Assembly (NCBI GenBank): GCA_022819825.1
Contig: JAJEGM010000054.1
Location: 1 to 64,000 of the forward strand
Source: Acidimicrobiia bacterium
GTDB lineage: Bacteria > Actinomycetota > Acidimicrobiia > Acidimicrobiales > Bin134
DNA: 64,000 nucleotides
Direction: 5' to 3'
Shown here: positions 3-56,633 of the stretch, in pieces
Position numbering within the stretch: the stretch's first letter is position 1
How the letters are laid out: each line of letters starts with the position of its first letter
The notes under the pieces: generated by a model
Databases searched by the model: none
What the model was told of the DNA's origin: nothing
What the model saw: only the letters and a program-made list of their open reading frames with translations
Position numbers and translations under genes: made by a program

Positions 3-1580
3 CCGCTGCACTACCTTCAACCACCGGGGGCCTCCCGTCTCTTGGACTATGTGTCAGTCACAAGAATCGGCGAGGCCCCCACCCTCAGTGGTGGACCCCC
101 AAATCACCCTGGTCCCAGCTTCGACGCGAAGAGCCGCCAAACTCTTCCTGCAGATAGACAGGAAAGGCTAGAGCAACACTTTAATGATGCTTACATCAGG
201 TTGAAGGAGGAAATCGATATGCAAGTTACCTCACTCAACTTGATTCAAGAAGAAGCAGAAAGGATCTCTCTTCCTAACTCTGCGCAGTTCTACGAGCATT
301 TGACGGACAAGTATGCTCAAATGAAGGAATCGTTTTCTAAAACGACCGATGCCGTTCGACAAACAGCGGAGTCTTTGTTGTGTGACCTGAAGGCAAAGGA
401 AGATAAACCATTTGAAAGTCAACAATTGTCTGGTGGCCTTCCAACAATGAAGTCAACAGCAATTTCTGAAGTAAATCTATTGATACAAGAACACAACAGA
501 TTGACCGAGGAATTCTCGGAGCAAGTTGCTCAATCAAGAGAAGCGCTAGAAAAAGACTCAGTGGCTACTGTATTTTCAGAATTTCGGAAGTACGAAGAGG
601 ATTTGAAGTCAAGTAATGAAGCCATTAAATCGAGCGAGTCCAAGAATGCTGAGTTGGATGGCGAAATCGCAGATCTGGAACGACAAATTTCCGAACATCG
701 TAAACCCGCAGAGGAATTGAACGAAGACTTAGCCAAATATTTGGGGCACGACGCAATTCAATTGGAAATTCTGGATTATGGATATAAAATTGTCAGGAAT
801 GGTATTCTTGCCAAGGCATTGAGTGAAGGGGAGAAGACGGCGATCGCCTTACTCTACTTCTTGAAGAGTCTAGAAGATGAGAGGTTTGAACTTGAGAATG
901 GAGTGGTGGTCTTGGATGATCCGGTATCTAGCCTTGATTCCAACGCTCTTTACCTTGCTGTTGCTTTTATCCAAGAACGTACCAAGCGCGCTGCTCAATT
1001 GATTCTCTTGACACATAATTTCACATTGTTCAAGTTGGCAAAGAGATGGTTCATAAATATGAATTCAGAGTGGGATAGAGATGGTGACGGCACTGCCGCT
1101 AAACCAGCACGCTTTTATATGTTGGATTGGGAGTATGTTGATGGGACGCGAACCGCAAAAATGAAACCTCTGGATCCATTATTGGAAAAATTCGAGTCTG
1201 AGTACCATTTCTTGTTTTCTCAAATCTATCGTGCATCAAAAGATAACCGTGACGTTGACTTAGCGGAATACTATAGCTTGGCTAATGTTGCACGAAGGCT
1301 GCTTGAGATGTTTCTAGCCTTTAGAAGTCCAGGTGCTACAGGTGACTTGCCAAATCAGTTGAATTCGGCCAAATTGAGCTCCCCACAGATTGGTCGAATC
1401 GTGAAGTTCGTCCATAGCCATTCCCATGGGGATTTTGTTGGGGAATCGGAACACAATTTGTCAATGTTAAGCGAAGGAAGGCAGGTAATGAAGGACATCA
1501 TGGCGTTAATCAGAGCTGAAGACAAGGCTCATCATAAGGCCATGAGGCGCTTGGTGGAGAAAGCTGGCGCATATGCATGA
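3..1580 (+). CDS. AAA_13-type (RloC/PrrC-like) ATPase, 5'-truncated by window edge
   Basis: The frame is open from the first bases of the window, so the real start and the Walker A motif lie upstream; a TTG at 42 is the first possible start inside. Visible are a long coiled-coil-prone middle (about residues 50-240, numbered from 42), an ABC-like signature LSEGEKTA, a Walker B segment VVVLDDPVSSLDSN and an H-loop LLTHNF. These are typical of the AAA_13 family (PF13166), which includes the anticodon nucleases RloC and PrrC and many defence ATPases. Near the C-terminus R418-x3-E422 is followed by H458/H460/H462, a spacing reminiscent of the Arg-Glu-His nuclease triad of PrrC; this is suggestive only. 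The gene is clearly richer in A+T than its neighbours, which points to horizontal transfer. A plain SMC/RecN role is less likely. Confidence 0.75.
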   Translation, partial: PLHYLQPPGASRLLDYVSVTRIGEAPTLSGGPPNHPGPSFDAKSRQTLPADRQERLEQHFNDAYIRLKEEIDMQVTSLNLIQEEAERISLPNSAQFYEHLTDKYAQMKESFSKTTDAVRQTAESLLCDLKAKEDKPFESQQLSGGLPTMKSTAISEVNLLIQEHNRLTEEFSEQVAQSREALEKDSVATVFSEFRKYEEDLKSSNEAIKSSESKNAELDGEIADLERQISEHRKPAEELNEDLAKYLGHDAIQLEILDYGYKIVRNGILAKALSEGEKTAIALLYFLKSLEDERFELENGVVVLDDPVSSLDSNALYLAVAFIQERTKRAAQLILLTHNFTLFKLAKRWFINMNSEWDRDGDGTAAKPARFYMLDWEYVDGTRTAKMKPLDPLLEKFESEYHFLFSQIYRASKDNRDVDLAEYYSLANVARRLLEMFLAFRSPGATGDLPNQLNSAKLSSPQIGRIVKFVHSHSHGDFVGESEHNLSMLSEGRQVMKDIMALIRAEDKAHHKAMRRLVEKAGAYA

Positions 1581-6767: not shown

Positions 6768-7250
6768 ATGGCGCTCGATAAGCGACCCATCCGGTTTGAG
6801 CGGCTGGCTCTGGAGGAAGTGGTCCACGAGATGCTGACCCTGGCGGCCCGGGGCGACGGGTCGGGGTGGATCAACGTCCAGCCGCTGGTAGCCGACGAGG
6901 ATCGGCCTCCCGAGTCGCCCATATTCAAGCTGTTCACGGCGAAGGGACCGGCCGTTCCGCTCGGCACCTGGGTGCCGGGCCACCACTACCGGGACAAATG
7001 GCAGCCCGCCTCAGTGGGCTTACAGCACGCCGGTGGTCGTTACGCCGCCAAGCTGCTGGAGGAGCGGGGGGTGGCCGAGCCCGACGGTTGGAACCGGCGC
7101 CAGGACCACATCAAGCGGGGCTTGGTGTACGAGCTGCCCGAAGGTCAGGACCCGCGGGTGGCACTGGAGTTCCTGGTTGACGCCATGGCCAATCTCGTGG
7201 AGTTTCCGCTAAGCGGCCGCTGGCAGGCAATGGTTCTGACCCAGCGCTAA
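6768..7250 (+). CDS. Conserved-looking hypothetical protein
   Basis: The 160-residue product starts at ATG 6768, chosen because GGGAG lies about six bases upstream; a GTG two codons earlier is the alternative. I do not recognise the family. It is soluble, lacks a signal peptide, and has a central WVPGHHYRDKWQP segment with two adjacent His, and a C-terminal EFLVDAMANLVEFPLSGRW. It follows the SnoaL-like gene by 42 bases on the same strand, so it probably belongs to the bicupin operon. Its stop codon overlaps by four bases the stop of the convergent acyl-CoA ligase gene. Confidence 0.6.
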   Translation: MALDKRPIRFERLALEEVVHEMLTLAARGDGSGWINVQPLVADEDRPPESPIFKLFTAKGPAVPLGTWVPGHHYRDKWQPASVGLQHAGGRYAAKLLEERGVAEPDGWNRRQDHIKRGLVYELPEGQDPRVALEFLVDAMANLVEFPLSGRWQAMVLTQR

Positions 7251-48064: not shown

Positions 48065-48655
48065 CTAAGCGGCGATGGCGTCCAGAACCCGGTTTTGGGG
48101 GATGGCGCCTCGCCAACTATCGAGAATCTGTCCGTTGCCATCCAGCAGCATTCCTGCGGGCTGGCCGGAGATTCCTAGTTGGCGCCAAGACTCGAATGTG
48201 GGATCCCAGAGCATGGTGAACGTAGTGCCGGTGGACTGCACGAAGCTCTCAGCCAACCCGAGGCTGTCTTGGGTTCCGACTCCTACCACTGTGAGCTTGT
48301 CAGAGTTGTTTCGAGCGAACTGCTCGACGCCGGGGGCTTCCCGGCGACAGATGGTTCAATGGGGGGCCCAGAACCACAGCACGATGGGCCGGTCCGCGGG
48401 GGCGAAGCTAGCCAGATTCACAGTGGCTCCGGTGGCTACGTCCACCAACTCGACCGAGGGCAGATCAGATGCCGGAACTGGGGCGGCGGTCTCTGTGGCC
48501 ATCTCGGGGGCGGGCGCCAGAGTTGCCAGCGGCGCCTCGGTTGAGACCGGCGCCCCAGTGGGAGCAGCCTCTGGGCCGTCGCCGCTGTCTGCGCAAGCGG
48601 CTGTGCCCAGGGCCAAACAGGCGGCAAGAGCGAGAACCCTGATCTTCGGCTTCAT
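48065..48655 (-). CDS. Candidate selenoprotein: TlpA-like lipoprotein with in-frame TGA (UxxC), paralogue B
   Basis: Read through TGA (48358-48356) this frame encodes 196 residues: lipoprotein signal with lipobox GTAAC (C21), a Pro/Ala/Thr-rich linker, then a thioredoxin-fold domain. The redox motif reads WFWAPH-U100-TIC103-RREAP, with TGA in place of the first Cys of CxxC. Downstream, VVGVGTQDSLGLAESFV and SGQPAGMLLD (cis-Pro P166) are normal for TlpA/ResA-type thiol oxidoreductases. Nothing else breaks the frame. A hairpin-forming stretch follows the TGA (separate entry). The start ATG 48655 is 13 bases after the stop of paralogue A, so the pair is an operon. It is probably an extracytoplasmic thiol-disulfide enzyme with selenocysteine. 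The alternative, a nonsense mutation, would have to strike the same codon in both copies. Confidence 0.8.
48311..48346 (-). promoter_or_regulatory. Candidate SECIS region after TGA of paralogue B
   Basis: Starting 10 bases after the TGA, a 7-bp stem CGCCGGG/CCCGGCG with loop AAGCC can form (48346-48328). A second hairpin, TCGAG/CTCGA with loop CAGTTCG, follows at once (48327-48311). Bacterial SECIS hairpins sit just 3' of the UGA, with the apical loop roughly 16-37 bases away; the two loops here lie at 17-21 and 34-40. Which hairpin would bind SelB is unclear. Confidence 0.55.
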
Positions 48656-48668
48656 GGTTGCACTCACG

Positions 48669-49637
48669 TCAGGCTGTTCCAATGCTCGCCACCTTATCCA
48701 GGATCCAGCTGTGCGACGGGCTGGCCCGCTTGTCGATTTCCTGGCCGAACCGGTTGAGGACGATCACACGGTGTTGACTGGTGATCCCGAGTCCGTTCCA
48801 TGAGGCGCCGGACGAATCCCACAGCATCTGGAGTGAATTCCCGGTTCCAGTGATTCGAACGAAGTCCTCGGCCTGACTCAGATTGTCTCGGGCGCCCACC
48901 CCGATCATGGTGAACTTGTCGGTGTTGTCTCGAGCCAACTGCTCGAGGCCGGGGGCTTCCCGGCGGCAGGTGGGTCAATGGGGGGCCCAGAACCACAGCA
49001 CGATGGGCCGGTCAGACGGGGCGAAGCTGGCCAGGTTGACGGAGGCCCCGGTAGCCACGTTCACCATCTTCACTGACGGCAAATCTGAATCGGGGACCGG
49101 TGTCGGCTCTGGTGTTGGCGGTGGCGGCGGTGGGGGCGGCGGTGGGGGTTGTGTCGGCTCTGGTGTTGACTCTGGTGGAGGCGTGGGCCTGACGGTGGAC
49201 TGGGGGGTGGACACCGTAGTGGGTGTCGATGCCGGAGTCGGCCGGGAAGTGGAGGTTGCCGGTGGCGCTGAAGTCGAAGTTGCTGCCGGCGTTGTGGTGG
49301 CGGGCGCTTCCGTGGCGGGCGCTGAGGTTGCCGCTGGCTCCTCGGGTGCGCTGGTTGCCTCAGTCTCAGTGGGTTCGGCAGCGGGAGCATCATCGGGCTC
49401 GGGCAGTCCGGGATCCGGACTTGGCTCAAGCTGGTCAGGGGGTTCAGTGGATGCCGCGGTTGGGTCGGCCGCGATGTCTGTTGGTGCCGCGGTTGGGTCG
49501 GCCGCGATCTCGCCGCTGCCCTCTTCCGACGTCTCCGTACCCCCGCAGGCAGCAGCGGCCAGGGATAGAACCAGGGCTATGCCCGCGGCGGCGAACACTC
49601 TGGTTCGCCGACCGCGGCACAATGCCCGAATACTCAC
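48669..49637 (-). CDS. Candidate selenoprotein: TlpA-like lipoprotein with in-frame TGA (UxxC), paralogue A
   Basis: Read through TGA (48977-48975) this frame encodes 322 residues: lipoprotein signal with lipobox AAAAC (C31), a long Pro/Thr/Glu-rich linker (about 32-185) including a run of 11 prolines, then a thioredoxin-fold domain. The redox motif is WFWAPH-U221-PTC224-RREAP. Sequence beyond the TGA (MIGVGARDNLSQAEDFV, GQEIDKRAS) is conserved with paralogue B. The usual cis-proline is replaced by H289 (TSQHRVIVL), which may alter substrate binding. A TAGCAT hexamer eight bases before the GTG 49637 suggests a leaderless mRNA for the two-gene operon. The long linker suits a protein that spans the thick cell wall. 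Confidence 0.8.
48929..48964 (-). promoter_or_regulatory. Candidate SECIS region after TGA of paralogue A
   Basis: Ten bases after the TGA a 6-bp stem GCCGGG/CCCGGC with loop AAGCC can form (48964-48948), followed by CTCGAG/CTCGAG with loop CAGTTGG (48947-48929). Both hairpins sit at the same distance from TGA as in paralogue B. Of the 45 bases after TGA, 40 are identical between the two genes. Confidence 0.55.
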
Positions 49638-49667: not shown

Positions 49668-51374
49668 TCACTCTCCGAGGCTGCGATAGGGAGCAGTCTG
49701 CTGGACGCAGGTGGGAATGTCGGGATCTCCGGGACATGGGAAGTTGAACACCAACTCGGTTACCACGTTGGGAGCCCCAAACTTGTTGGGGCCGAAGGTG
49801 GCGGGAAGCTGATGCTGGATGTCTACCGAGCCCAGGTTTTGGAAGGCTGTGTAGATGTCCTGGCGAGTGGGGTTGGGCCCGGCGTCGTAGATGGCCCGGG
49901 CCACCATGCGCATCTCGGTACACACAGTGGACGTCATGCCATAGGCGCTGTCGTAGCTCCCATAGATCTCCCGGGTGTGGCTGGCGCCGATGGCGCTGTT
50001 GGCCGCATAGGTCTCGTTGCACATGATGTTCAGCGGTGCGTTGAAGCTGAGCACCGGGTCGTCGGAGCGGAAGTTCCCGGTGGGGGCATCGTCGATGATG
50101 ATGGTGCCGTTGTACATCTCCGCGGCGGCGTCTCCGCCGAACTGAGCCACCTTGCCCGACACCAGGTCACCGGCCTGGCTGTTGAAGTCAGAGTTGTAGA
50201 ACTGCACGTCGCCGGGGGCGTAGCCCTGGTTGACCATCTCATTGATGAACTGGGGCAGGCTGAGCACGTTGAGGCCGGGGAAGACCACGTCGACGCCCTC
50301 TTCCAGCATCCGCTCCACCGCGATGTCGTTGCCCTCACGGCAGGTGGTGGCACCGCCGCAGCCGATCTGCTCGGCCACGGCAATGTCGTAGCCCGCGGCC
50401 TCTATGACATCGATGATCCCGGCTTGCACGGTCTCGGGTTGCCCGGGGGTGTCGGGCCAGATCACCGCGATGGTCTTGCCGTCCAAGGCGCCGGTGTCGA
50501 TGATCGCCTGGGTCATGTTGACCACCGAATCCTCGGCCACGGGGCTAAGCGAATACAGCAGGCCGTTGGCTTGCTCGTGGAACTCGCGGGGGTTGCCCTG
50601 GGTGGTGAGGAACAAGGTGTCGTGGTCGGCCGCGATGCACAAGATTGCGCTGCCCTGGAAGCCGGTGGTGTTGGTCACGATCACCGCGTTGTGATCCTCG
50701 GTGGCTTCGATACAGGCCTGGTTGCGCAGCGTGTCGATGTCCTCGCCGCCGCCGCCGAGCGCGGATACCTCCACAAGGCGGAGATCGATCTGGCGGCCCC
50801 AGATCCCGTTGCAGTCTTCGTTGATTGCCTTGGTGAATGCCTCGAACATGTCAATGGGGTCGCCTACCGGAACGGCGAAGCCGATGCCCTCCAGTTCCTC
50901 CAGCTTGGTGCGGAGGTGGACGATGGTGATGGAGTCTTCGGTGATGCCCACGTCGGTGGCCTGGGGCGGTGAATCCGGATCGGGCGTGGCCGTGCAGAAC
51001 ACGTCCAGCGACTGGAATGGGTGGGAGCGGTCGAAGGTCCTGTGGAAATCGATGAACAAGTCGCCCCGGGGCTCGTCGAAACCGATGTCCACCGGCTCTT
51101 CCGTTGCTGGTTCGGATGGCTCGCCTGAATCGTCGGATGGCTCAGAAGGCTCTTCTTCGTCGGTGGCCGGCGCCGCGGTGTCCTCTGCCGGGGCTGGCTC
51201 GTCTTCACCGTCGGTATCTGCTGGGGCATCCGGTTCGTCGGTGGCCGGAGCCGCGGTGTCGTCTGCGGGTGCTGGTTGTGCACCGCCGTCGTCATCGTCG
51301 TCGCCTCCGCATGCCGCGGCGATGAGTGTCAATGCCAGCAGTATCCCCAGGATCTTGAGCATCTTGTGAGACAC
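49668..51374 (-). CDS. Branched-chain amino acid-type ABC substrate-binding lipoprotein
   Basis: The 568-residue protein has a lipoprotein signal (lipobox IAAAC, C22), a very acidic Asp/Glu/Pro/Ala-rich linker (about 25-95) and a type 1 periplasmic-binding fold (PF13458) with SITIVHLRTKLEELEG, ALDGKTIAVIWPDTPGQPE and VVFPGLNVLSLPQFINEM. It should deliver ligands to the LivHMG-like fusion encoded across the divergent gap. GTG 51374 has GAGGGG five bases upstream. The ligand may be other than amino acids. Confidence 0.85.
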   Translation of the reverse strand: MSHKMLKILGILLALTLIAAACGGDDDDDGGAQPAPADDTAAPATDEPDAPADTDGEDEPAPAEDTAAPATDEEEPSEPSDDSGEPSEPATEEPVDIGFDEPRGDLFIDFHRTFDRSHPFQSLDVFCTATPDPDSPPQATDVGITEDSITIVHLRTKLEELEGIGFAVPVGDPIDMFEAFTKAINEDCNGIWGRQIDLRLVEVSALGGGGEDIDTLRNQACIEATEDHNAVIVTNTTGFQGSAILCIAADHDTLFLTTQGNPREFHEQANGLLYSLSPVAEDSVVNMTQAIIDTGALDGKTIAVIWPDTPGQPETVQAGIIDVIEAAGYDIAVAEQIGCGGATTCREGNDIAVERMLEEGVDVVFPGLNVLSLPQFINEMVNQGYAPGDVQFYNSDFNSQAGDLVSGKVAQFGGDAAAEMYNGTIIIDDAPTGNFRSDDPVLSFNAPLNIMCNETYAANSAIGASHTREIYGSYDSAYGMTSTVCTEMRMVARAIYDAGPNPTRQDIYTAFQNLGSVDIQHQLPATFGPNKFGAPNVVTELVFNFPCPGDPDIPTCVQQTAPYRSLGE

Positions 51375-51483: not shown

Positions 51484-53730
51484 ATGGGGGACCAAATGGA
51501 CGACTCGGTGGAACCGGACGTCGACGGCTCGCAACTGGACGATCCAGCCAATTTGGCCTCGGCGGTTTTCGAGGAGGAGTCCAAGCGCCTCGCCGAGCAG
51601 GCGGCCAAATCGGAAGTGGTGGTGCTTCCCGACGATCTGCTGCCCGGTGTGGGCGAAGCGCCCATGACGTTGCGGCAGGGAATCCAGGCTGGCGGGGCAA
51701 GCATGCTCGTGGTGCTCTTCTTGCTCAACGTGATCGACGAGTTCGACCGGGTGGCAATCGCCGTGCTCCTGCCCGATCTCCAAGACGCCTTCGGCGTGTC
51801 GGACACGGTGATTCTGGGCATCTCCTCGTTCGGCGGTGTGGCCCTGGTGCTGGGGGCGGTGCCGCTGGCCTGGCTGGCCGACCGGGTGAAACGCACCCTC
51901 ATCGTGCCAGTGGCCACTGCGGGGTGGGCGGTGAGTGTGTTTCTCACTGGTTTGGTGAGGAACCCATTCCAGTATTTCTGGACCCGGGTTCTCACCGGGG
52001 CGGGCCAGGCCAACCGCTTGCCGGTGCACTCATCGCTGCTCACCGATACCTATCCCATACCGGCTCGGGCTCGGATTTTTGCCTTCGAGGGCATGGGTCG
52101 GCCCATTGGCCTGCTGATCGGGCCGGTGCTGGCCGGCGCCATCGCCTCGATAGCCGGTGGGGATGACGGGTGGCGCTGGGCGTTCTACATCTTCGCCATC
52201 CCGCCGATTGTCCTGGCGCTGGTGTCTCTGATTTTGAAGGAACCCCCTCGAGCGGGCAACGAGCAGCAGGCCATCTTGGGCGAGCAGTACGAGATGCCCC
52301 CCATCGGGTCGGATCTTCCGGTTTCCATGTCCACGGCCTTCGCCCGACTCAAGAAGGTCAAGACCTTCTACTTCCTGGCTGTGGGGGTGGGAACCCTCGG
52401 CTTCGCGCTGGTCACGCTGCCCAGCCAGCTCAACCTGATGCTGGAAGACGAATACGGCTACGAGGCCTTCCAGCGGGGCTGGGTGACGTCGCTGGTGTGG
52501 CTGGCCAGCCTGGTGGCCATCCCCATCTCGGGCTTCAAGTTCGACGGTATGTTCCGGGAGGATCCGGCCAAGATGGTGCGTACCGCGGGCACGCTCATCA
52601 TTATGTCGGGCGTGCTGGTGCTCATCGCCATGCGATTCCACCAGCCCGCCATCATGATCTTCGGCATCAGCCTGGCCAACGCCTGCACATCGGCCTCCTT
52701 CGTGGCCGCCGCCCCCACCATTGGTGCGGTAGCCCCTTACCGGATGAGGGCCCAGGCGTTCGCGCTGTTGCCGGTGTTCATTTTCTTGATGGGCGGGTTC
52801 ATGGGAAGCATCATCGCCGGTTCCATCAGCGACGCCCACGGAGAGCGCCTGGCCATCAGCATCGTGGCCCCGCCGGCTTCGATAATCGGCGGTCTGCTGG
52901 TGGCTTACGGCTCCCGCTACATCAAACGCGACATCTCGCTGGCGGTGAGCGAGCTGGTTGAAGAGCAAGAGGAGATGCGCCGCATGTCGGAGCATCCCGA
53001 TGACATCCCGGTGCTCCAGGTTCGGGGACTGGACTACAGCTACGGCCCGGTGCAGGTGCTGTTCGACTGCGGGCTGGAGGTGCGCCGCGGCGAGACGCTG
53101 GCCCTGCTGGGCACCAACGGCGCGGGCAAGTCCACCCTGTTGCGGGCGGTCAGCGGTTTGGGGGTACCTGATCGGGGGGCCATCCGTCTCAACGGGCGCA
53201 CCATCACCTACGCCGATGCTGAGCTGCGCTTCAAGCAGGGCATTGTGCAGGTGCGGGGAGGCGCCGGAGTGTTTCCCGGCCTGACGGTGGAGGAGAACCT
53301 CCTGGCCACCATGCTCAGCACGAAAGAGGAGAAGGCCGAGATCTACCGGCGAGTCGAGCGGGTGTACGACGTATTTGGCGCGCTGCGGGAGAAGCGCAAT
53401 CAAGCCGCGGGAGACCTCTCCGGTGGCCAGCAGCAGATGCTGGCCTTCGGGATGGGCTTGATGCACGAACCCGAGGTGCTGCTCATCGACGAACTCTCGC
53501 TGGGCCTGGCCCCGGTGGTGGTGCAGGAGCTGTTGGAGGTTGTGGAACAACTGAAGGAGACCGGGCTCACCATGATCATCGTGGAGCAGTCGCTGAACGT
53601 GGCCCTGAGCGTGGCCGAGCGGGCGGTCTTCATGGAGAAGGGCCGGGTGCGCTTCGAGGGCCCGGCCCAGGAGCTGGCTGAGCGAGACGACCTGGTGCGG
53701 GCGGTGTTCCTCGGTGCCGAGGGTGGTTGA
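51484..53730 (+). CDS. Fusion: MFS transporter plus LivF-type ABC ATPase
   Basis: A single 748-residue chain. Residues about 60-475 are a 12-helix MFS domain (DEFDRVAIAVLLPDLQDAFGVSD, LAWLADRVKR, GRPIGLLIGPVLAG). Residues about 500-740 are a LivF-type ATPase with Walker A GTNGAGKST near 545, signature LSGGQQQML near 645, Walker B VLLIDELSLGLAP and H-loop IIVEQS. No stop or frameshift separates them. LivF normally pairs with LivG, LivH and LivM, which follow fused in the next gene. The presence of an MFS domain in the same chain is unusual. Confidence 0.93.
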   Translation: MGDQMDDSVEPDVDGSQLDDPANLASAVFEEESKRLAEQAAKSEVVVLPDDLLPGVGEAPMTLRQGIQAGGASMLVVLFLLNVIDEFDRVAIAVLLPDLQDAFGVSDTVILGISSFGGVALVLGAVPLAWLADRVKRTLIVPVATAGWAVSVFLTGLVRNPFQYFWTRVLTGAGQANRLPVHSSLLTDTYPIPARARIFAFEGMGRPIGLLIGPVLAGAIASIAGGDDGWRWAFYIFAIPPIVLALVSLILKEPPRAGNEQQAILGEQYEMPPIGSDLPVSMSTAFARLKKVKTFYFLAVGVGTLGFALVTLPSQLNLMLEDEYGYEAFQRGWVTSLVWLASLVAIPISGFKFDGMFREDPAKMVRTAGTLIIMSGVLVLIAMRFHQPAIMIFGISLANACTSASFVAAAPTIGAVAPYRMRAQAFALLPVFIFLMGGFMGSIIAGSISDAHGERLAISIVAPPASIIGGLLVAYGSRYIKRDISLAVSELVEEQEEMRRMSEHPDDIPVLQVRGLDYSYGPVQVLFDCGLEVRRGETLALLGTNGAGKSTLLRAVSGLGVPDRGAIRLNGRTITYADAELRFKQGIVQVRGGAGVFPGLTVEENLLATMLSTKEEKAEIYRRVERVYDVFGALREKRNQAAGDLSGGQQQMLAFGMGLMHEPEVLLIDELSLGLAPVVVQELLEVVEQLKETGLTMIIVEQSLNVALSVAERAVFMEKGRVRFEGPAQELAERDDLVRAVFLGAEGG

Positions 53731-53774: not shown

Positions 53775-56633
53775 GTGATCGACATCGGATGGGAGATCTC
53801 CCAACAGGACTTGTTCTCGGGCAGCGTGCAGGGTCTCATAGTGGCCGCGCTGGCCGCGGGGTTCGTGCTCATCTACCGGTCTACCGGGGTGCTCAACTTT
53901 GCCCACGCCGAAATCGGCAGCTTCGGCGTGGCCCTGATGGCCATGCTCACGTTCCGCTACGACGTGCCCTACTGGCTGGCCTTCTTCTTATCGGTTGGGG
54001 CCGCGGCTGGCTTTGCCATGGTCACCGAGCTGGTGGTGGTACGGCGGCTCTTCAACTCGCCGCGCCTGGTTTTGTTCATCGCCACGCTGGGAGTGGCCCA
54101 GCTGGCCATTTTCGCGGCCATCCAGCTTCCCGACGTATCCCGGCCGGGGCCGTTTCCCTTGCCCCCGAAGCTCACTGCTCAAGAGTTTCGTTGGGAGGTC
54201 ACCGACCACCTCCGCATCGGCGGGCGCGAGCTCATCGTGGTGATCATGGTGCCGCTGGCTATCGCCATACTGGCGTTGTTCTTGGGCCGAACCCGATTCG
54301 GGTTGGCCATCAGAGCCTCAGCGGAAAACTCCGACACCGGGAGGCTGTTCGGAATCAGCGTGCGACGGGTGTCCACCATGGTGTGGACCATCGGCGGGGC
54401 GCTGGCCGGCGTCACGCTCATCTTGCTGGCGCCATTCCGGGTCAGCGCGGCCGACGCGGGCACCGCCAGCCTCGGGCCGGGCTTGCTTCTTCGCGTGCTG
54501 CTGGTGGCGCTGATCGCCCGGATGCGATCGCTGTGGGTCACGCTGATCGCCGGAATCTGTCTGGGCATCTTCCAGCGGCTGTTCCAGGGCAACGTCGACC
54601 GGGAGATCCGCGAGGCGGTGGATGTGATCTTCTTCATCGCCATCCTGGTGATCACGGTGATGTTCGCCCGCCGAGCCACCGAGGACGAGGGGGAATGGTC
54701 GCTGTCGCCCAAGGTTAAGGCCATCCCCGAGCGGCTCCGAGGCCTGTGGTACATACGCAACCTGTCGAGGTTCGGATTCGTCGCCTTGTTCGGTGCCCTG
54801 GTGCTGCTCGGGCTGTTCCTCACCAAGAACTCCAACCTCTACACCTGGACCCGCATCCTGGGCTTCGCTTTGATTGCTTTGTCGGTATCGATGCTCACCG
54901 GCTGGGCCGGGCAGCTCTCGCTGGGCCAATTCGCCTTCGCCGGAGTGGGTGGACTCACGGTGGTGGCGTTGACCGAGAACGGCGACATCCCCATTCCGTT
55001 CGACTGGTGGGATTGGTCGTTCGACCTTCCGTGGGGGGTGGCGATGGTGATCGCGGTGGCCGCGGGAATGGTCACGGCCTTCATCATCGGCGTGCCCGCG
55101 TTGCGGGTGAAAGGGCTCATGCTGGCGGTGACTACGCTGGCGTTCGCCATCGCCGCCATGTCGTGGATCTTCGCGCAGGACGTGTTCACTCAGGGAGCCA
55201 CCAACACGCCCAAAGTCATCCCTCCGGTGTGGGGCCCGTTCGACTTCACCGCCTCCCGGAAGTCGTACTTCTTCATGGTGCTTGCATTGCTGGCTCTCGC
55301 GGTGTGGATGGTGGCCCACCTGCGCAAAACCGGAATCGGTCGAATGATGATCGCGGTGCGCGACAACGAGGACATGGCCGCGGCCTCCACCGTGTCGGGC
55401 AGCCGGATCAAGCTCATCTCGTTCACCCTGGCCGGGGGGCTGGCCGCACTGGGGGGTGGGCTGATCATCACCGGCGAGCCCACCATCAACCCCCAAGTCC
55501 TGTTCAACTCCAATGAGTCGATCAATGTGATCGCCATCGCCATCATTGGCGGGCTGGGGTCGATTGCCGGACCCTTGCTGGGCGTGTTGTGGGTGAAGGG
55601 CATTCCCGCCATCTTTGGGGCCAGCGACGAGGTGCGGCTGCTCACATCCGGTGTGGGCCTTCTGTTGCTGTTGATGTACTTCCCCGGCGGGATCATGCAG
55701 CTTCTCTACAAGCTGCGCGACTTCTTGTTGGGGATGGCCGATGAGCGCATGGCGGCCCGGGACATTCCCGAACCGGTACCGGCGCTGGACAAGCCGGTGC
55801 CCATCACCAGCGAGCGCGTTGCGGAGGTTGAAGAGGGGCATCCCTGGCTGGCGGTCCGGGATGTGCACGTGCACTTCGGCGGGAAGGTGGCGGTGGACGA
55901 AGTGTCCATCGAAGTTCACCAGGGCGAGCTGGTCGGCCTGATCGGCTCCAATGGGGCGGGCAAGTCCACCCTCATGAACGCCATCAGCGGCTTCGTCCCG
56001 TTTAGGGGCGGAGTGGAAGTGCTGGGAAGAGACATCTCGCGGCTTCCGTCCTACCGACGCCATCGGGGCGGATTAGGGCGGGGATTCCAGCACGCCAAGA
56101 TCTACCCGGATCTCACCGTAAGAGAAGCGTTGATGGTGGCGATGGAGGCCCGTGACCGTTCGTTGCTGGTCCCGTCGCTGCTGGGAGTGCCGCCTTCGCC
56201 GGGCCAAGAGCGGCGCAAGCGGGCCGATGTCGACAGCCTCATGGACTTTGTGGGGCTGGGGCGATACGCCGACCACTTCATCTCCAACCTGTCCACCGGA
56301 ACTCGCCGCATAGTGGAGTTGGCCAGCCTGCTGGCAGTGGACGCCAAGGTGCTGCTGCTGGACGAGCCCACCGGGGGGGTGGCCCAGCGGGAGAGCGAGG
56401 CGTTCGGTCCGCTCATCCGGCGCATTCAGGCCGAGCTGGGTGCCGCGGTAGTGGTGATCGAGCACGACATGCCGCTGGTCATGAGCATCAGCGACCGGGT
56501 CTACTGCTTGGAGGCAGGGCAAGTTATCTCCGAGGGGTCGCCTGAGGAGGTGCGGAACGATCCGCTGGTGATTGCTTCTTATCTGGGGACTGATGTGCGG
56601 GCTATTGAGCGGTCTGGGGAGCGTACGACCTAG
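53775..56633 (+). CDS. Fusion: LivH-LivM-LivG branched-chain amino acid-type ABC transporter
   Basis: A 952-residue chain joins both permeases and one ATPase. LivH-like residues about 1-300 (FVLIYRSTGVLNFAHAEIGSFG), LivM-like residues about 330-650 (GWAGQLSLGQFAFAGVGG, NEDMAAASTVSGSRIKLISFTLAGGLAALGG region), LivG-like residues about 690-945 with Walker A GSNGAGKST near 725, signature LSTGTRRIVELA, Walker B VLLLDEPTGGVA and VVIEHDM. The signature LSTGTRR differs slightly from the usual LSxGQ. Together with the MFS-LivF fusion and the binding protein it makes a full system. 44 bases separate it from the MFS-LivF gene. Confidence 0.93.
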   Translation: MIDIGWEISQQDLFSGSVQGLIVAALAAGFVLIYRSTGVLNFAHAEIGSFGVALMAMLTFRYDVPYWLAFFLSVGAAAGFAMVTELVVVRRLFNSPRLVLFIATLGVAQLAIFAAIQLPDVSRPGPFPLPPKLTAQEFRWEVTDHLRIGGRELIVVIMVPLAIAILALFLGRTRFGLAIRASAENSDTGRLFGISVRRVSTMVWTIGGALAGVTLILLAPFRVSAADAGTASLGPGLLLRVLLVALIARMRSLWVTLIAGICLGIFQRLFQGNVDREIREAVDVIFFIAILVITVMFARRATEDEGEWSLSPKVKAIPERLRGLWYIRNLSRFGFVALFGALVLLGLFLTKNSNLYTWTRILGFALIALSVSMLTGWAGQLSLGQFAFAGVGGLTVVALTENGDIPIPFDWWDWSFDLPWGVAMVIAVAAGMVTAFIIGVPALRVKGLMLAVTTLAFAIAAMSWIFAQDVFTQGATNTPKVIPPVWGPFDFTASRKSYFFMVLALLALAVWMVAHLRKTGIGRMMIAVRDNEDMAAASTVSGSRIKLISFTLAGGLAALGGGLIITGEPTINPQVLFNSNESINVIAIAIIGGLGSIAGPLLGVLWVKGIPAIFGASDEVRLLTSGVGLLLLLMYFPGGIMQLLYKLRDFLLGMADERMAARDIPEPVPALDKPVPITSERVAEVEEGHPWLAVRDVHVHFGGKVAVDEVSIEVHQGELVGLIGSNGAGKSTLMNAISGFVPFRGGVEVLGRDISRLPSYRRHRGGLGRGFQHAKIYPDLTVREALMVAMEARDRSLLVPSLLGVPPSPGQERRKRADVDSLMDFVGLGRYADHFISNLSTGTRRIVELASLLAVDAKVLLLDEPTGGVAQRESEAFGPLIRRIQAELGAAVVVIEHDMPLVMSISDRVYCLEAGQVISEGSPEEVRNDPLVIASYLGTDVRAIERSGERTT

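Follow-up and report, generated by a model that had tools for sequence, protein, structure and literature searches.

Tandem TlpA-type lipoprotein genes with in-frame TGA codons and a conserved downstream hairpin: probable envelope selenoproteins of Acidimicrobiia

A tandem gene pair with in-frame TGA codons

The window analyzed here is a stretch of 64,000 nucleotides (nt) of an Acidimicrobiia bacterium (assembly GCA_022819825.1, contig JAJEGM010000054.1), on whose minus strand two adjacent genes, A and B, encode lipoprotein-like proteins with a TlpA-type thioredoxin domain that are each interrupted by one in-frame TGA (Table 1). The original prediction, made from the sequence alone, had proposed gene A as a candidate selenoprotein, i.e., a protein in which this TGA is decoded as selenocysteine (Sec). 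Our analysis supports Sec insertion in gene A and adds what that prediction had missed, namely the second TGA-bearing gene in tandem and a hairpin downstream of each TGA. At the level of sequence, none of the three refuting outcomes named in that prediction arose.

The frame of gene A comprises 323 codons, of which the TGA is, as first described, the only internal stop, and it also terminates in TGA; with the internal TGA counted as a residue, the product has 322 residues. This codon indeed falls on the position of the first Cys of the TlpA/DsbE-type CxxC site (WFWAPH-U-PTC), where the Cys forms among the homologues have their redox Cys. GTG at 49637 is a tentative start codon for gene A, as a GGAAGG motif sits very close to it. 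Signal peptides and lipobox Cys residues of both genes were read by eye (...LSLAAAACGG in gene A), with Ala or Thr at lipobox position -3 instead of Leu, Val or Ile. Between the signal peptide and the TlpA-type domain of gene A lies a Pro/Thr/Ala-rich stalk of ca. 150 residues. The claim that an intact thioredoxin-fold half follows the TGA holds as well, given that the domain with TGA read as Cys matches the Pfam families Redoxin, AhpC-TSA, Thioredoxin_8 and Thioredoxin, all above cut-off, and that its AlphaFold2 model reaches a mean pLDDT of 95.0.

A gap of 13 nt separates the stop of gene A from gene B, which repeats the layout of gene A with a shorter stalk (54% identity between the two proteins). 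Its TGA occupies the same codon as that of gene A (WFWAPH-U-TIC), and its last sense codon ends at 48068, followed by a TAG stop at 48065-48067. A plain listing of open reading frames (ORFs) truncates both genes at the TGA.

Table 1. Features of the tandem locus in the window (bSECIS, bacterial selenocysteine insertion sequence; MFE, minimum free energy).
Feature	Position	Strand	Description
Gene A	48669..49637	-	Predicted lipoprotein: signal peptide, stalk, C-terminal TlpA-type domain, UPTC site; terminal TGA
In-frame TGA of gene A	48975..48977	-	Predicted Sec, codon 221, N-terminal position of UxxC
bSECIS-like hairpin of gene A	48930..48946	-	6-bp stem, loop A-G-U-U-G, MFE -12.0 kcal/mol
Gene B	48068..48655	-	Second lipoprotein-like TlpA-type protein; ATG start, short stalk, UTIC site
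In-frame TGA of gene B	48356..48358	-	Predicted Sec, codon 100
bSECIS-like hairpin of gene B	48311..48327	-	Stem TCGAGC/GCTCGA, loop AGUUC, MFE -8.8 kcal/mol
Upstream gene	49668..51374	-	Peripla_BP_6-like substrate-binding lipoprotein, separated from gene A by 30 nt; 10 Cys in addition to that of the lipobox

Selenocysteine machinery and genetic code

The genome assembly (3.44 Mb in 57 contigs, 91% complete) contains all components by which a bacterial Sec system is recognized, i.e., a tRNA-Sec with anticodon TCA (UCA), SelA, SelB directly after SelA, and SelD. The SelA and SelB matches have no internal stop, and SelD carries an in-frame TGA of its own in the motif HGAGUAGK, the usual Sec site of this protein. 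The tRNA-Trp of the genome has the anticodon CCA, and TGA is therefore not simply read as Trp.

The tRNA-Sec gene lies on a 3.9 kb contig (L012/L003, G000:C22), away from selA-selB, and is flanked by an ATP-binding cassette (ABC) ATPase gene and by an ORF that resembles, by eye, the start of a DNA methyltransferase.

A conserved hairpin downstream of the TGA

Counted from the T of the TGA, offsets 31-36 and 42-47 pair into the stem of a hairpin in both genes. The published bSECIS model (PMC13188914) calls for a loop of 3-9 nt, a stem of 4-16 bp, a G within the first two loop positions, a spacing of 16-37 nt and an MFE of at most -7.5 kcal/mol. The hairpins of A and B agree with it in loop (5 nt, with G second and then U), stem (6 bp), spacing (34 nt) and energy (Table 1).

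Selection on this hairpin was assessed by comparing folding energies with those of shuffles that swap synonymous codons and keep the amino acids, using 25 windows of 27 nt in 144 Sec genes, many of them close relatives, and in nine Cys homologues, two of which have WAPW (L186, L187) and none of which is an FWAPF form. The window 30-57 nt after the T of the TGA stands out in Sec genes with a mean z of -2.36 (standard error 0.07), compared with -0.48 to +0.49 in the other windows, and the Cys homologues show no excess stability there (mean z +0.42). The loop reads A-G-U-U-N with A in 141 of the 144 Sec genes and G38, U39 and U40 invariant, and the six stem pairs are intact in 135, 139, 144, 140, 141 and 143 of them. 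The two sides of the stem covary: pair 32-46 is CG in 109 genes and TA in 29, and pair 34-44 is AT in 122, GC in 10, TA in 4 and CG in 3. Such counts are inflated by genomes that are nearly identical, and changes were therefore also counted on the protein tree described below, with 12 between CG and TA at pair 32-46 and 7 at pair 34-44.

Genome-wide, the combination of TGA and hairpin core occurs twice, in genes A and B only, and never in a reversed control. Stem and loop encode V/L-E-Q-F/L-A-R/Q, which is conserved in Sec forms and not kept in Cys forms. The choice between R and Q follows the third base of an upstream codon, as base pairing demands, and the conservation of E-Q-F/L-A in Sec forms is probably due to this demand of the RNA.

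Three other hairpins were considered. An upstream GC-rich hairpin (offsets 13-29) was rejected as the SECIS element, with a mean pairing probability of only ca. 0.4, weaker conservation and the downstream hairpin being the covarying one; the window 12-36 nonetheless has a mean z of -1.77 in Sec genes versus -0.73 in Cys genes, and a second selected RNA element is possible there. In the SelD gene, a hairpin with an AGGU loop can be drawn near the same distance, yet it is absent from the minimum-energy fold and we make no claim for it. Similarly, four actinobacterial TGA homologues from outside the order (L204-L207) show a hairpin in the same register by eye, and their minimum-energy folds choose others.

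Homologues with TGA or Cys at the same codon

To survey this codon among relatives, named genomes were scanned with a pattern that leaves the third base of the Sec codon (TGN) free and is restricted to the WFWAPH motif. It gave at least 143 matches in at least 119 stretches, and among the matches listed the codon is TGA in 134 of 143, with TGC (5) or TGT (4), i.e., Cys, in the remainder. Two Cys matches in Glaciecola and Pseudomonas (L061, L112) and one TGA match in Streptomyces (L163) were dropped as chance matches, as was L057 as a doubtful member with a second TGA four codons on, leaving 132 TGA and 7 Cys forms among the matches listed. This second TGA of L057 (match at 7046, plus strand; UPTCUREAP) may be an error, a sign of decay or a second recoded codon. 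Among the matches listed, 93 of the 119 stretches have titles that name Acidimicrobiia or its families and most others just Actinomycetota or bacterium; one names the Sva0996 marine group, whose bin134 (L116) has the tandem pair. Two or more TGA matches are found in 23 of the 111 TGA-bearing stretches among those listed.

Far from being degraded in homologues, the part after the TGA is conserved as a domain in 140 Sec rows, with the frame kept open past the TGA. It stays open for 219 and 153 codons past Sec, versus ca. 100 otherwise, in L121 (match 3887) and L164 (match 1310; both minus strand, strand coordinates), which possibly have C-terminal extensions.

Across the order, 248 of 298 genomes match gene B at E <= 1e-8, general TlpA relatives included. 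At least 86 of the 298 have a homologue with in-frame TGA among the matches listed, and 85 of these 86 have SelA. SelA without a TGA row among the matches listed was found in 94 genomes, a figure that depends on these matches and is no count of true TGA absence, and neither was found in 118 (Fisher 1.8e-22; four weak SelA matches with E > 1e-20 scored as absent). Six of the ten genomes that have TGA-free rows among the matches listed and no SelA belong to family f20 (G108, G292, G255, G215, G072, G167), which has the Cys form FWAPFCxxC. In a tree of 159 proteins, exchange between Sec and Cys requires at least six changes, and the Cys rows L052 with L078, L146 and L129 fall among Sec rows; this tree was built with a quick method from few columns, those coding for the hairpin included. 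Of 296 genomes drawn from the phylum, 27 match the alignment at E <= 1e-20; one TGA in the match is also seen in several families that lie outside the order.

The group is expanded in G106 and G138, which have eight gene B matches each at E <= 1e-8; the four of each among the matches listed carry one TGA apiece. G282 resembles a TGA-free or broken form, but assembly collapse is more likely, since the contig ends in the very repeat at which the gene is joined, and this genome was left out of the Cys forms. Its tandem genes (L176; G282:C207:4000-7620) have apparently collapsed at the shared repeat, and such repeats may hide the pair in other metagenome-assembled genomes.

Fold and nearest known proteins

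Both proteins combine a thioredoxin fold with the WxxxCxxC-type site of TlpA, DsbE and DsbF, in which the first Cys is replaced by the predicted Sec. The presumed cis-Pro position before strand 3, as placed from the alignment, holds Pro throughout the 16 B rows; of the 17 A rows, 11 have His, the window copy among them, and 6 have Pro; over all 140 Sec rows, Pro (93), Ser (34) and His (11) occur. Neither protein reaches any NCBIfam cut-off. Among the NCBIfam matches, just one model is named as ResA-like with a U-containing motif, NF041054 (WAxxUGC ResA-like selenoprotein). It gives 28.6 bits for gene B against a cut-off of 300 and is not among the matches listed for gene A; its motif has UGC, whereas A and B have UxxC.

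DsbF and MPT53/DsbE have Cys where A and B have the predicted Sec. These exported actinobacterial thioredoxin-fold proteins (3ios and 1lu4) are the nearest solved folds by both sequence and structure, at 26-33% identity (Foldseek and VIA rows). Etrx1 and Etrx2 partner with CcdA, have Cys rather than Sec and are not encoded as an adjacent pair. They resemble A and B as predicted here in that, according to their PDB titles (4hqs, 2yp6), they are surface lipoprotein thioredoxins with exposed domains and two paralogues in one organism.

The original prediction had called an exported, lipid-anchored version with a long Pro-rich stalk unusual. The cd02966 UxxC thiol-disulfide isomerase-like and PF08534 UxxC Redoxin families are already among the predicted selenoproteins of Table 1 in PMC13188914, and a Global Ocean Sampling (GOS) survey lists Trx-like 1 and Prx-like 3 (PMC2398784). 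These families have a thioredoxin/TlpA-type domain in common with A and B, as well as an N-terminal Sec within UxxC. What sets the A/B group apart, by descriptions that leave room for overlap, is the apparent lipid anchor and stalk, the tandem operon with its fixed hairpin, and the actinobacterial clade; it would otherwise work as the known kind does. In the open-access literature searched, we found no description of a group of this type in Acidimicrobiia.

Proposed mechanism and role

Taken together, Sec insertion in genes A and B is very likely on sequence grounds, and we hold with high confidence that both encode Sec-decoded, hairpin-directed, exported and probably lipid-anchored envelope thiol-disulfide enzymes of the TlpA type. 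By the standard bacterial mechanism, the in-frame UGA would be read as Sec by tRNA-Sec and SelB, the latter being recruited by the hairpin (6 bp, AGUU loop), which starts 34 nt downstream of the UGA. The products would be exported and probably lipid-anchored, and the Pro/Thr-rich stalk would keep the thioredoxin domain, of TlpA/DsbE/DsbF type, off the membrane. A role as membrane-tethered reductases is plausible: the N-terminal Sec of UxxC, as the attacking selenolate, would reduce or shuffle oxidized thiols in proteins of the envelope, with the second Cys resolving the Se-S bond. Electrons would most likely come via the sole CcdA/DsbD_TM protein found in the genome (one match, on contig C10), and the best candidate client, proposed for its position and Cys content, would be the binding lipoprotein of the gene immediately upstream, which is rich in Cys.

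If so, A and B belong to a large, little-noticed and often duplicated group of lipoprotein-like actinobacterial selenoproteins; ORF listing stops at the TGA, and the window proteins lie below NCBIfam cut-offs. In uncultured Acidimicrobiia, as in some further Actinomycetota, the group would provide the Sec system with a concrete and often multi-copy use, probably outside the cell.

Several observations weigh against parts of this proposal. One genome (G170, 83% complete) has a TGA homologue without a SelA match, and another (G019) has SelA, yet both homologues found in it are Cys forms. Partial termination may occur at the UGA. The CcdA-like gene adjoins a Cys-type ResA-like gene and lies on another contig than A and B. 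A conserved operon partner across the order was not found with crude ORF calls that include many false antisense ORFs, and client and donor are therefore guesses. Mycobacterial DsbF and MPT53 are oxidases, i.e., they work in the direction opposite to the proposed reductases. Finally, the genome gave no VKOR match, a negative of little weight at 91% completeness, so that this and the single DsbD_TM match favor the reducing direction only weakly.

Of the alternatives, the one that survives best accepts Sec and makes A and B oxidases or isomerases that form extracellular disulfides like actinobacterial DsbE/DsbF. DsbF and MPT53 are after all the closest structures, and the mature part of the upstream lipoprotein has 10 Cys, an even number, none of which is replaced in any related row that spans its position. 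Sec at the attacking position is, however, usually considered to favor reduction, and the absence of a VKOR match alongside one DsbD_TM match points the same way; we regard this alternative as possible but distinctly the less probable direction. Rather unlikely, in our estimate, are envelope peroxidases whose selenolate reacts with peroxides and whose UxxC Cys resolves: the motif is UxxC of TlpA type rather than the TxxU of Sec peroxiredoxins (PMC13188914), and Pro is kept at the cis-Pro position in 93 of 140 rows. The His in the clade of copy A invites a more speculative idea, which we consider improbable. As cis-Pro may bar metals from the CxxC site, a Sec-Cys-His trio in A could bind metal or act as a peroxidase while B keeps an ordinary thiol-disulfide role, and the pair would then serve the Cys-rich lipoprotein of the operon as an envelope selenium relay with two steps.

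Two explanations deny Sec altogether, and we give practically no credence to either. Genome-wide reassignment of TGA, e.g., to Trp or Cys, would also leave the frame open, but it is at odds with the anticodon of tRNA-Trp, the TGA terminator of gene A, the restriction of the TGA-hairpin pattern to A and B, the Cys rather than Trp of homologues and the dedicated Sec system. A pseudogene or sequencing error, in which the TGA would be a genuine stop or a wrongly called TGC/TGT and the part after it a relic, could look like gene A if this stood alone, but the tandem paralogue with the same TGA and the TGA in 134 of 143 matches listed make an error very unlikely, and the domain conserved in 140 Sec rows and codon-level selection on the hairpin RNA speak against a relic.

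Genes around the tandem pair

The upstream lipoprotein scores 30.4 bits against Pfam Peripla_BP_6, just below the cut-off of 31.7. Within the genus of the window organism, related loci carry the same Peripla_BP_6-like lipoprotein ahead of gene A with 11 Cys, one of them in the lipobox. All nine full-length copies (two organisms counted twice) have 11 Cys, and each position is Cys in every related row covering it (9 to 24 rows). Elsewhere, neighbors vary by clade and include, besides a substrate-binding lipoprotein, molybdate- or phosphate-type ABC, gyrase-like and oxidoreductase genes, all but the first labeled by eye.

Divergent from the binding-lipoprotein gene lie two unusual fusion genes in a transporter locus of the branched-chain amino acid type. 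The first (51484-53730, plus strand; 748 residues) joins a major facilitator superfamily (MFS) transporter to an ABC ATPase, and the second (53775-56633, plus strand; 952 residues) joins two BPD_transp_2 permease stretches to an ABC ATPase, both according to Pfam.
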